Positions 37,335 through 44,891 of a DNA stretch of 44,891 nt are shown piece after piece. The notes beneath the pieces are model-generated. The model was not told the origin of the DNA and did not search any database. It was given only the letters and a program-made list of their open reading frames with translations. Every line of letters starts with the position of its first letter. Position 1 is the first letter of the stretch. Origin of the DNA: Candidatus Altimarinota bacterium (GTDB taxonomy: Bacteria > Patescibacteriota > Gracilibacteria > Absconditabacterales > Absconditicoccaceae); NCBI GenBank assembly GCA_027046965.1, contig JALTWR010000017.1, positions 1 through 44,891 on the forward strand. Direction: 5' to 3'. Position numbers and translations under genes: made by a program.

Positions 37335-39251
37335 TTAAATATCCAATTCCTTTACTTTTTTGGCATGGGTAAGTATAAAATTTTTCCTCAAGCTAACCTC
37401 CTCACCCATCAACACTCTAAAAAGCTTATCAGCTTGAGCAGCATCGGCTATTGTTACTTTTTGAAGTCTCCTCTTAGTTGGGTCCATAGTAGTTTCCCAT
37501 AATTGGTCAGCGTTCATCTCTCCAAGACCTTTATACCTTTGAACTTCAACCTTTGTGGGGTCAAAGCCAAGGTTCTTGATTTCCTCGTCTAGATCTTCCA
37601 CAGGTGGATATATATACGCTGATTTCTTCCCTTGAGTAATCTTATAAAGAGGAGAAATAGCTATATAAAGATGTTCGTTTTCGATCAACGGCCTCATATA
37701 GCGAAAGAAAAAAGTCAAAAGCAAAGTCCTAATATGAGCTCCATCTACATCAGCATCTGTCATCAGGATAATTTTATCATAGCGAAGCTTACTTTCATCA
37801 TAAGCATCTCTAATACCAGCTCCAATAGCTATTATCAGAGACTTAATTTCATTATTAGCCATAATTTTTTCCAAAGAAGCCTGCTCTGTATTTAAGATTT
37901 TACCACGCAAAGGTAAAATAGCCTGGAAGCTACTATCACGGGCCTGTTTTGCAGTACCTCAAGCACTATCACCCTCAACTATAAACATCTCAGTCCCTTC
38001 CCTTTTTTTGATACTACAATCTGTAAGCTTTCAAGGCAACACTCCAAAGGAGATAGCCGACTTTCTCATCACTGTCTCTCTTGCCAATTTAGCCGCTAAT
38101 CTCGCTTTGGCACTTAACTTAATTTTTTCAATTATAATTTTCGCTATATCCTCATTTTGTTCCAACTCACCCTTCATATACTCAAATACCATCTCATCTA
38201 CTTCCTTTTTAACATATGCATTACCCAACCTTCCTTTGGTTTGTCATTCAAACTGAGGATCTGGGATTTTCACAGTAACTATTGCATAAAGTCATTCTAA
38301 TATATCTGAGAGTTGGAAGCTCCCTAACTTTTTATCAATTAAATTTCTAGATTTTGCAAACTCATTAAAAGCTCTAAGTAATGCTGACTTAAAGCCGTTT
38401 ACATGAGTTCAACCATCTGGAGTAGGTATATTATTAACAAAAGAAAAGATATTCTCAGCGGTGGCTTCTGTATATTTAAAAGCTATTTCAATCAAAATAT
38501 TGTTCCCTTCCCCAGAAATATAAAAATCTTTGGAAACAGGCCTAAGTCAATCAGTAAGCCTATTCAGCCAAAAGGCTATTCATCACTGAGAAAAGAATCT
38601 TTCTCTCTTGTCAACTCTTTCATCTACCAAAGTAAATACTATACCAGGAGTAAGGTAAGCAGCCTGTCTAAGTCTTGTTGATATCACGGAATAACTAAAT
38701 TTAATTGTCTCGAAAATTGTAGAATCTGGTTTAAATTTCACAAATGTTCACCTTTTTGAAGTCTCACCAACCACCTTAACATCGTAAATAGGCACACCTC
38801 TTTCATATTCTTGCTGATATATTTTACCATCCCTATAAACTTGTACAATAAGATGATCCGAAAGAGCATTAACCACCGAAGCTCCAACTCAGTGCAAACC
38901 TCAAGAGATTTTGTATACTCACTTTTCAAATTTACCACCAGCATGCAAAATAGTAAACACTGCTTCTAAAGCTGACTTACCAGTTTCAGGATGAATATCA
39001 ACAGGGATTCATCTCCCATCATCCTCGACAGAAACATATCAATCCTGGTGAATCCCAACAGTTATACTTTTTGCATGTCCTGCCAAGGCTTCATCTACTG
39101 CATTATCTACTATTTCATAAACCATATGATGTAATCCTCTAGTGTCTGTAGAACCTATATACATTCAAGGTCTATGTCTTACGGGCTCTAATCACTTCAG
39201 CACTTTAATTTGTGAAGAGTCATAATTTGTTATCCTTTTTTCCATAATCAT
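37335..39251 (-). CDS. gyrB: DNA gyrase subunit B
   Basis: A 638-residue type II topoisomerase ATPase subunit. GHKL motifs: [38 protein letters not shown] and [39 protein letters not shown] and [17 protein letters not shown]. The GyrB-type ending is [20 protein letters not shown]. It introduces negative supercoils together with GyrA (not in window). A second ATG at 39245 could be the true start ([11 protein letters not shown]); both lack a ribosome site. It heads the gyrB-folD-gatA operon. The promoter and the upstream terminator overlap (see 39267-39316). Confidence 0.97.
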
Positions 39252-39266
39252 TTTTTCAAAAATAAA

Positions 39267-39301
39267 AAATCCCTAATATACCAGCTCAATAATAGGGATT
39301 T
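39267..39301 (-). terminator. Terminator of the ftsE operon, overlapping the gyrB promoter
   Basis: A 9-bp inverted repeat (AAATCCCTA and TAGGGATTT) with a 17-base loop is followed on the minus strand by a T-rich tract. It lies 24 bases after the stop of the 118-residue gene and 15 bases before gyrB. Transcripts from the gyrB promoter would start inside the loop and lack the first arm, so only read-through RNA could form the hairpin. Confidence 0.6.
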
Positions 39302-39316
39302 GCCGTTGCTTTTCAA
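39289..39316 (-). promoter_or_regulatory. Candidate gyrB promoter
   Basis: Minus strand: TTGAAA, a 16-base spacer, then TATTAT. The -10 overlaps the first arm of the terminator hairpin. The predicted start is about 30 bases before the gyrB ATG. Confidence 0.5.
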
Positions 39317-39324
39317 CTACAACC

Positions 39325-39681
39325 TTATTTTCACATTAATCTTTGAAATAACAATTCTGTATCAATTTTGGCTATTTGAGCAAGATTTTTAATGTCCTTT
39401 TCTTCTTGCGACCAAAATTTCTCCCATATTGCTTTTATCTGAGATGATGAATTTAAACCTATAAATTTAGCCTCAACTAATCTAGCAAATATTTTTGCCA
39501 ATCAGTCTTGTAACGAATCATTTATCAATTCCAAATAAGAATAAGATGGAAAGTAGCTAAAAGAGGTTTTGCAATTTTCATAAACGGGTCTATTAGCTTC
39601 TATTAAATCCAAATACTCATTAAGCCATCACAAAATATCTTGATACTCTCTTTTGAGATTTTGCAAAGTTGATGATGCCAT
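39325..39681 (-). CDS. Hypothetical protein, 118 residues
   Basis: No family recognised. It is a helical, acidic-basic protein starting MASSTLQNLKREYQDILGWL, with aromatic residues (SFSYFPSYSYLEL) and a C-terminus KDIKNLAQIAKIDTELLFQ, and no membrane segment. Three TGA codons encode glycines. Its start overlaps the previous gene by 62 bases in another frame; the ATG is preceded immediately by TAA AAA in the same frame, so an indel in the T/A runs just upstream could have moved the true end of the preceding gene. It is the third gene after ftsE. Confidence 0.55.
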
Positions 39682-39919
39682 TTTTTAACAAAAAAAATAT
39701 AAAAAGCTGCATCAGTTTAGACTCATATTCCTTTTTTATCTCCAAAAGACCTTTAACAAGTTGATCCTTGTTTTTTTCTAGCAATTGTAATTTGGGGTAA
39801 TTGAGTTGCTTTAAATATTGTTGAATATGTTCTTGCAAAAAAGGAGGTAAATCTAAGTTAGCTTTTATCCGCAAATCTAGATTTTTTCTCAATGTCTGAG
39901 CCATATAATATTCTTTCAT
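39620..39919 (-). CDS. Hypothetical protein, 99 residues, C-terminus uncertain
   Basis: No family recognised. The first 70 residues (start MKEYYMAQTLRKNLDLRIKA) are helical and charged, with LPPFLQEHIQQYLKQLN. The last 30, where it overlaps the 118-residue gene by 62 bases in another frame, look less natural (FIFFLLKNGIINF). A run of eight T and a run of six A sit at the overlap. A single-base change there would end this gene at a TAA directly before the next ATG, giving clean spacing. Its ATG is 3 bases after the ftsE stop. Confidence 0.5.
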   Translation of the reverse strand: MKEYYMAQTLRKNLDLRIKANLDLPPFLQEHIQQYLKQLNYPKLQLLEKNKDQLVKGLLEIKKEYESKLMQLFIFFLLKNGIINFAKSQKRVSRYFVMA

Positions 39920-44199: not shown

Positions 44200-44221
44200 C
44201 CATAGAAGTTGATTTCTATGG
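44200..44221. other. Inverted repeat between convergent genes
   Basis: CCATAGAA / TTCTATGG form an 8-bp stem with a 6-base loop in the 23-bp gap between the cca stop and the stop of the cysteine-rich gene, reaching into the latter's last codons. No T-run follows on either strand, so it is not a standard terminator, but it may help block converging transcripts. Confidence 0.4.
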
Positions 44222-44891
44222 ACACCTATAACAAGTATCACATATAGTTCTACTACAAGTGTCACATACAGTTCTACTGCAAGTGTCACATACCCGGAAA
44301 ATATCACAATAGCCCTCATCATCACAAGCTTCTACCCAGTCACAATTACAGTCATATGTTTCTGTTCTACAATTACAATCGTATGTTTCTGTTCTACAAT
44401 TACAATCATATGCTTCCTTTTCTTGACATCAATCACAAGGATAAGAAGTTGTACTGCTTACAGAACAATTTCAACTCTGGCATGTTTTATAATAATATGT
44501 TGTACCCCCACAATAGCCTCCACATGCAACTCATTCATTTTGTGCTCTCCAAACAGTTTGAGTATCATATTCAACACAACTTCAATTCTCGCAATGAAAG
44601 AGATGTTTTACTCCGTAGTCTCTACATGTAGTATCAGTACCTTCATCCCGAGCTATATAAGCTTCACCAGCACACGCGTTAGGATTACATACTCTTACAG
44701 TAGTTGAAGCACTTGCTGTAGGTCTATCTGTATCATTATCACCTATATCATTTCTTACTTCCCTCAGATTGTTCCTAGCATAAACTGTAATAGTCCAACT
44801 AGCATCGGGAGAAGAAGTACTATAAGTTCTCGTTACCTGAAAGCTAGTCCTTTCAGGGGGATCTAAACTAGCCGTCCCATTACCATAATTA
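44216..44891 (-). CDS. C-terminal part of a cysteine-rich repeat protein, probably surface or secreted (cut by window edge)
   Basis: The last 224 residues are visible. First comes a beta-sandwich-like segment (RTYSTSSPDASWTITVYAR) rich in Thr/Ser/Asn. Then follow about 136 residues with 24 cysteines (near 18%), without recognisable family. Two repeat blocks occur: DCNCRTETY (9 residues, about 2.5 copies) and CDTCSRTV (8 residues, about 2.5 copies). The protein ends YRCP. The many cysteines predict disulfide bonding or metal binding. Glycines in ENGSC, NEGVA, QSGNC and CDGCQ are TGA, which confirms the frame. The N-terminus is missing, so a signal peptide cannot be checked. Confidence 0.75.
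44231..44291 (-). repeat. 24-base coding tandem repeat (CDTCSRTV/I)
   Basis: About 2.5 units that differ at a few, mostly silent, bases. They encode CDTCSRT-V/I near the protein's end. Confidence 0.75.
44342..44411 (-). repeat. 27-base coding tandem repeat (DCNCRTETY)
   Basis: About 2.5 nearly identical copies. The near identity suggests recent duplication within the gene. Confidence 0.75.

Follow-up and report, generated by a model that had tools for sequence, protein, structure and literature searches.

A predicted gyrB promoter probably nested in the intrinsic terminator of the preceding operon in a Candidatus Altimarinota genome

The junction upstream of gyrB described here resembles several known systems and departs from each of them. 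The gyrA and gyrB promoters of Escherichia coli are reportedly stimulated by relaxation, with control assigned to the -10/start region, and the same region is a candidate control site at the present locus. Like an intrinsic (Rho-independent) terminator, the gyrB junction carries a hairpin that lies behind a stop codon at a spacing typical of the genome and runs into a U tract; unlike such a terminator, it has a stem poor in G+C, whose first arm also serves as promoter spacer and -10 element. Similarly, TTGAAA-16-TATTAT, located 37 nt before the ATG, fits the promoter model of this genome as a sigma-70-type promoter, but its predicted start lies inside the loop of the upstream terminator. Two in vitro studies describe terminated RNA polymerase that reinitiates on downstream and original promoters (PMC6978380; PMC6978322). 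The gyrB promoter would likewise be within reach of a terminating polymerase, but it differs in being inside the terminator, and recycling there is hypothetical. A literature search for a named class of nested promoter-terminators found no direct precedent, although subscription journals were thinly covered and no absence is claimed, and a search naming Absconditabacteria gave no transcription study of the lineage among the matches listed.

The window, which is the whole stretch of 44,891 nt that was analysed, is an entire contig (C17) of a genome of 854,813 bases in 32 contigs that is 94.8% complete. Genes are uninterrupted only when TGA is read as glycine (table 25). A scan of public contigs gave no close relative, the nearest gyrB record having 60% identity. 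The features of the junction and its neighbourhood are listed in Table 1. The gap between the upstream stop codon and the gyrB ATG is 73 nt (39324-39252).

Table 1 Features at and around the gyrB junction, and nested cases in the sampled genomes (positions without a prefix are those of the window)
Feature	Position	Strand	Remarks
gyrB	37335..39251	-	638 aa, TGA read as Gly; ORF and profile matches
T tract TTTTTTATTTTT	39258..39269	-	T6AT5; putative U tract of the terminator, within the gyrB 5' leader
Terminator hairpin, whole	39301-39267	-	about -10.5 kcal/mol, predicted fold
Arm 2 TAGGGATTT	39267..39275	-	predicted fold
Predicted transcription start	39282	-	7 nt past the -10, in the hairpin loop; placed from the -10 position
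gyrB stretch after the -10 TGAGCTGGTA	39279..39288	-	gyrA counterpart AGAGTTGGTA, same register after the -10
-10 TATTAT	39289..39294	-	16-nt spacer; ends 37 nt before the ATG
Arm 1 AAATCCCTA	39293..39301	-	overlaps promoter spacer and -10
-35 TTGAAA	39311..39316	-	genome-trained promoter model
Upstream co-directional ORF	39325..39681	-	118 aa, code 25; stop TAA 39327-39325; orphan
ORF between the FtsE-like ATPase and the 118-aa ORF	39919-39620	-	no Pfam/NCBIfam match
FtsE-like ATPase	40627-39923	-	upstream of gyrB, same direction
Nested case, own gyrB		-	73-nt gap; predicted start in hairpin
Nested case, own genome	L115:3761-3823		-11.6 kcal/mol; arm 1 holds the predicted histidine-kinase gene start
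Nested case, G008	193734-193801		gap of 81 nt or less
Nested case, G004	45126-45206		gap of 81 nt or less
Nested case, G008	55162-55271		sole nested case among longer gaps

The earlier note had assigned the upstream genes to an ftsE operon. The ATPase is indeed FtsE-like, but its top NCBIfam match, TIGR02673, reached 209.5 bits and lies under the cut-off of 264.85, and the ATPase is followed by two ORFs (39919-39620 and 39681-39325) for which searches of Pfam and NCBIfam gave no match. The 118-aa ORF was present in only one of the 40 genomes searched, i.e. its own, suggesting that the junction is recent or lineage-specific. The ATPase gene has no adjoining FtsX gene; an FtsX-like gene is located on another contig (C8; L131:12433-13356) and has no FtsE-like neighbour among the ORFs listed. 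A Cys-rich ORF at 44216-44890 of the window contains the short tandem repeats YDCNCRTET and CDTCSRT and runs off the contig end.

The hairpin and T tract that the earlier note had placed 15 nt before gyrB were confirmed at 39301-39267 and 39269-39258, with the first gyrB ATG at 39251. In the predicted fold, the stem consists of nine perfect pairs and, past one mismatch, three more A-U pairs; three of the 12 pairs are G-C, and the arms are separated by a 17-nt spacer. A hairpin this stable with a T tail had a probability of 0.0002 in random 73-nt gaps of matched composition. When the hairpin alone was folded, four of 200 shuffles were as good (z -2.4), whereas the fold of the whole fragment was less striking (z -1.5; 13 of 200 shuffles equal or better). 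The dyad occurs once in the genome. After the stem on the + strand comes GCCGTTGC with no T tract, and so the hairpin does not have the form of a bidirectional terminator. A stock hairpin/promoter scanner did not list the hairpin because its loop exceeds the scanner limit of 8.

The promoter was evaluated in a sample of 423,906 bases of the genome (GC 0.33), in which ORFs were called with table 25. Since a generic consensus count showed no enrichment of promoter-like sites in the AT-rich region (55 found vs 60.5 expected), we used a genome-specific model trained on leader genes having at least 60 nt of upstream space. The trained model was TTGAAA/TTGACA, 16-17 nt, TATAAT, and a score of at least 10 was reached by 0.54 of 154 leader genes, on which it had been trained, as compared to 0.075 of 107 tight followers and 0.06 of random sequences. 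When gyrB was excluded from the training, its promoter scored 13.4 (P = 0.0028 in random 73-nt gaps; P = 0.001 when the -10 was also required to lie 30-44 nt before the ATG), and no other candidate within 700 nt upstream scored above 6.2. The TTGAAA-16-TATTAT sites proposed earlier were found to be exact, with one refinement concerning the -10 on the first arm: only two of its six bases form part of the continuous 9-bp stem, and the whole hexamer lies on the extended arm. The textbook promoter spacer is 17 nt, one longer than the 16 nt that was commonest in the models of this genome and of two relatives, G004 and G008 (82/119, 71/81, and 46/65, respectively). In leader genes of the genome, no Shine-Dalgarno sequence was found (GGAG in 0 of 94). 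The bin at about 20-23 nt upstream of the ATG contained 0.22 TTTAA motifs per leader gene, as compared to about 0.05 at greater distances, and positions -14 to -25 form a T-rich zone. The motif and the zone are possibly a non-SD initiation signal.

The spacing of both signals follows rules of the genome. Of 92 co-directional gaps of 30-400 nt, 12 held a hairpin with a T tail and a stability of at least -10 kcal/mol, vs 0.1 expected. Convergent and divergent gaps, which were counted once per strand, gave two such sites in 22 readings (0.0 expected) and one in 90 (0.2 expected), respectively. The gyrB hairpin has the weakest energy of these 12 terminators. Their stop-to-stem distances were 0, 21, 22, 22, 23, 24, 25, 26, 31, 35, 38, and 193 nt, so that 10 of 12 fall at 21-38 nt, and the gyrB junction, at 23 nt, is within this range. 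The -10 boxes of strong promoters end mostly 25-49 nt before the ATG, as does that of gyrB. Since a 73-nt gap is too short to hold both signals in series with their usual spacings, overlap is forced.

Based on these results, the junction is probably a compact tandem one, in which the intrinsic terminator of the upstream operon shares a stretch of 50 bp with a sigma-70-type promoter of gyrB. A polymerase arriving from upstream would copy both arms and the intervening loop, allowing the hairpin to form, and the RNA would be released in the T tract at about 39266-39258. Polymerase bound at TTGAAA-16-TATTAT would start near 39282, in the loop; the predicted RNA has the 5' end GGUAUAUU and a leader of 31 nt. 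In this gyrB RNA (GGUAUAUUAGGGAUUUUUU...), arm 2 would be without its partner and transcription would continue into gyrB. Predicted folds are consistent with this scheme, as the hairpin is lost when the 5' end lies at 39295 or further downstream (-1.8 vs -10.6 kcal/mol), and thus RNA starting near 39282 should escape termination. The earlier proposal that a transcript begun at the gyrB promoter would lack arm 1 is supported by the sequence statistics. We infer promoter firing, termination at the hairpin, and the exact start position from the sequence. As for the proposed insulation between the operons, it holds at the RNA level but not at the DNA level, where the upstream polymerase would still cross the gyrB -35, -10, and start before stopping about 20 bp further on. 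Such a crossing polymerase may occlude the gyrB promoter, or may feed it if terminated polymerase can reinitiate.

We examined recurrence in the sample of the own genome (G000) and in 200 kb each of the single-contig family genomes G008 and G004, with cut-offs of -8 or better for terminators, a promoter score of at least 8, and co-directional gaps of 25-400 nt. The 262 gaps contained 35 terminators, 23 of which had a promoter of this score before the next gene. In gaps of 81 nt or less with a promoter, the predicted start was inside the hairpin in 4/4 cases, whereas in gaps of more than 81 nt it was downstream of the hairpin in 18/19 and inside in 1/19. Thus, beyond the own gyrB, four terminators in the three sampled family genomes nest likewise. 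A looser cut-off added a weaker case of the own genome (L124:3134-3209; -7.9 kcal/mol, start in arm 2). The remaining 12 terminators had no promoter of score 8 or more; four of them were in gaps of 81 nt or less, i.e. 4/8 of the tight terminators, and some of these may be attenuators or mis-called. The proportion of 4/8 is only suggestive, because 0.16 of random 100-nt sequences contain a score 8 promoter by chance. Terminator-like hairpins with no detectable promoter for the next gene were also seen at L121:2934-2982 and G000:C8:64674-64734, in co-directional gaps of 49 and 61 nt, and are possible attenuators.

Relatives were compared at gyrB itself. Matches to gyrB were obtained in 37 of 40 genomes, own included, and 30 loci were taken, one being the own locus and the other 29 comprising 20 of the same family and 9 of the same class. 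No hairpin over the start of a promoter scoring at least 8 was seen at any of the 29 other loci (0/29). The closest were weak look-alikes: G009 (L016) has a hairpin of -8.4 kcal/mol bearing the -10 of a 6.9-score promoter 61 nt before the ATG, and in G006 (L008) a promoter of score 8.6 has a hairpin of -4.6 kcal/mol across its start and TGAGCT directly after its -10, the neighbour in the stretch examined being divergent. The G005 locus (L015) carries both signals, a strong promoter and a terminator, in series. Conservation of the stem, which the earlier note had suggested as a check, was therefore not found at this level; the test is weak, since the comparison was at family and class level and the upstream ORF is an orphan. 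The reading of the arrangement as compact insulation is partly supported: the packing recurs and is explained by the spacing in a 73-nt gap, but it was not conserved at the gyrB loci of these relatives.

An alternative that we regard as unlikely is that the N-GAGYT-GGTA start region, the start-spanning dyad, and the U-rich leader of gyrA and gyrB together control both genes, e.g. as a supercoiling-responsive discriminator and initial transcribed region, and that termination of the upstream operon is secondary. The promoter upstream of the own gyrA (L155:1338-1398) reads TTGAAA-16-TAAACT-A-GAGTTGGTA-G-TTTTTTATTTT and that of gyrB TTGAAA-16-TATTAT-T-GAGCTGGTA-TATTAGGGA-TTTTTTATTTT. The two have an identical -35, 16-nt spacer, and register, and share N-GAGYT-GGTA at the predicted start, a TTTTTTATTTT tract in the leader, and a dyad across the start. 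When promoters were compared downstream of the -10, the gyrA-gyrB pair ranked 6th in similarity among the 3655 pairs formed by 86 strong promoters of the genome. Six exact matches to TANNNTNGAGNTGGTA were found in the genome; the four non-gyrase ones are within open frames of 143-957 codons, and only those of gyrA and gyrB are outside open frames of at least 143 codons. In the stability of start-spanning hairpins among 97 own promoters, a histidine-kinase gene ranked 1st, gyrB 2nd (-10.5), and gyrA 3rd (-8.0). A common element would also agree with the reported role of the discriminator sequence in the supercoiling response (PMC9825172) and with the reported rise of E. coli gyrase on relaxation (PMC4770202).

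The genome-wide and comparative data speak against such an element. The loose N-GAGYT-GGTA pattern was not enriched in the genome (41 matches vs 42 in the reversed control), the gyrA hairpin taken alone was not significant against shuffles (z -0.95 and -1.3), and the similarity is mostly confined to one genome: no full gyrA/gyrB motif was seen by eye in relatives, and start-spanning hairpins at their gyrase genes were not enriched (Mann-Whitney P 0.39, own genome excluded). TGAGCT was found in 4/44 family gyrase upstream regions vs 2/357 (one being gyrB itself), which favours the element (Fisher 0.0016) with a motif chosen post hoc. A common element would moreover be compatible with the nested terminator. 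The gyrA hairpin was considered as a second nested terminator and rejected, since the neighbour of gyrA is divergent, so that no terminator of an upstream operon can explain the hairpin, and the fold is not significant. As this similar, weaker hairpin spans the gyrA start beside a divergent neighbour, part of the gyrB dyad may have another cause.

The T tract could likewise have more than one role. With a T tract defined as at least 8 T in 9 within 45 nt of the ATG, it was present at 12/23 gyrA (L186-L207, L213) and 8/21 gyrB (L002-L027) loci of the family, counting those of the own genome, as compared to 47/357 leader genes (Fisher 2.4e-5 and 0.005, respectively), a background from just three genomes; gyrase start codons were chosen automatically, G007 gyrB and G002 gyrA being odd cases. 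The T-tract gyrase leaders of the family mostly lack a comparable hairpin, and hairpins within T-tract leaders numbered 5/20 for gyrase vs 4/46 for others (P 0.12). Since gyrA, with its divergent neighbour, has a T tract too, the tract may also be a feature of gyrase leaders, and the terminator on the gyrB side was possibly built upon a shared gyrase leader. A fuller version, which we consider improbable, combines both ideas: the start region, dyad, and U-rich leader would be a topology-responsive element, on which the gyrB terminator was built from the U tract and two added arms, and terminating polymerases would be handed to the gyrB promoter just crossed.

The other readings rank lower than a nested terminator and promoter. 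A hairpin with a U tract immediately ahead of an important gene, together with the excess of T tracts in gyrase leaders, could suggest a leader attenuator, with gyrB RNA arising from an upstream start or read-through and regulated termination setting gyrB expression. This is quite improbable, as no promoter above 6.2 in the 700 nt upstream offers such a start, the seven Rfam matches over 38900-39700 (E 2.5-9.7) were all below gathering thresholds, which also speaks against a riboswitch, and comparable hairpins are mostly missing from the T-tract gyrase leaders of relatives. The chance is similarly slim that the inverted repeat is an accident of an AT-rich gap and that the upstream operon and gyrB are co-transcribed; the low GC of the genome and the low G+C of the stem favour this, and the P values of 0.0002 for the terminator and 0.0028 for the promoter, as well as a stop-to-stem spacing typical of the genome, argue against it. 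Very improbably, the repeat acts as DNA, either as a repressor operator or as a cruciform that is driven by supercoiling and masks the -10. Perfect 9-bp arms surround the -10 and start, and E. coli promoter regions are reported to be enriched in inverted repeats (PMC6060812), but the dyad is unique in the genome, its 17-nt spacer is long for extrusion, and the T tract is on one side only, as in a one-way terminator.

The nested terminator and promoter at gyrB thus look like ordinary space-saving and not a new kind of system. The similarity of the gyrA and gyrB start regions, if real, would offer a testable case of gyrase control in this lineage. In the nested reading, a reduced genome fits the end of one operon and the start of the next into about 60 bp, and fixed stop-to-stem and -10-to-ATG distances would provide a simple rule that predicts where nesting must occur.
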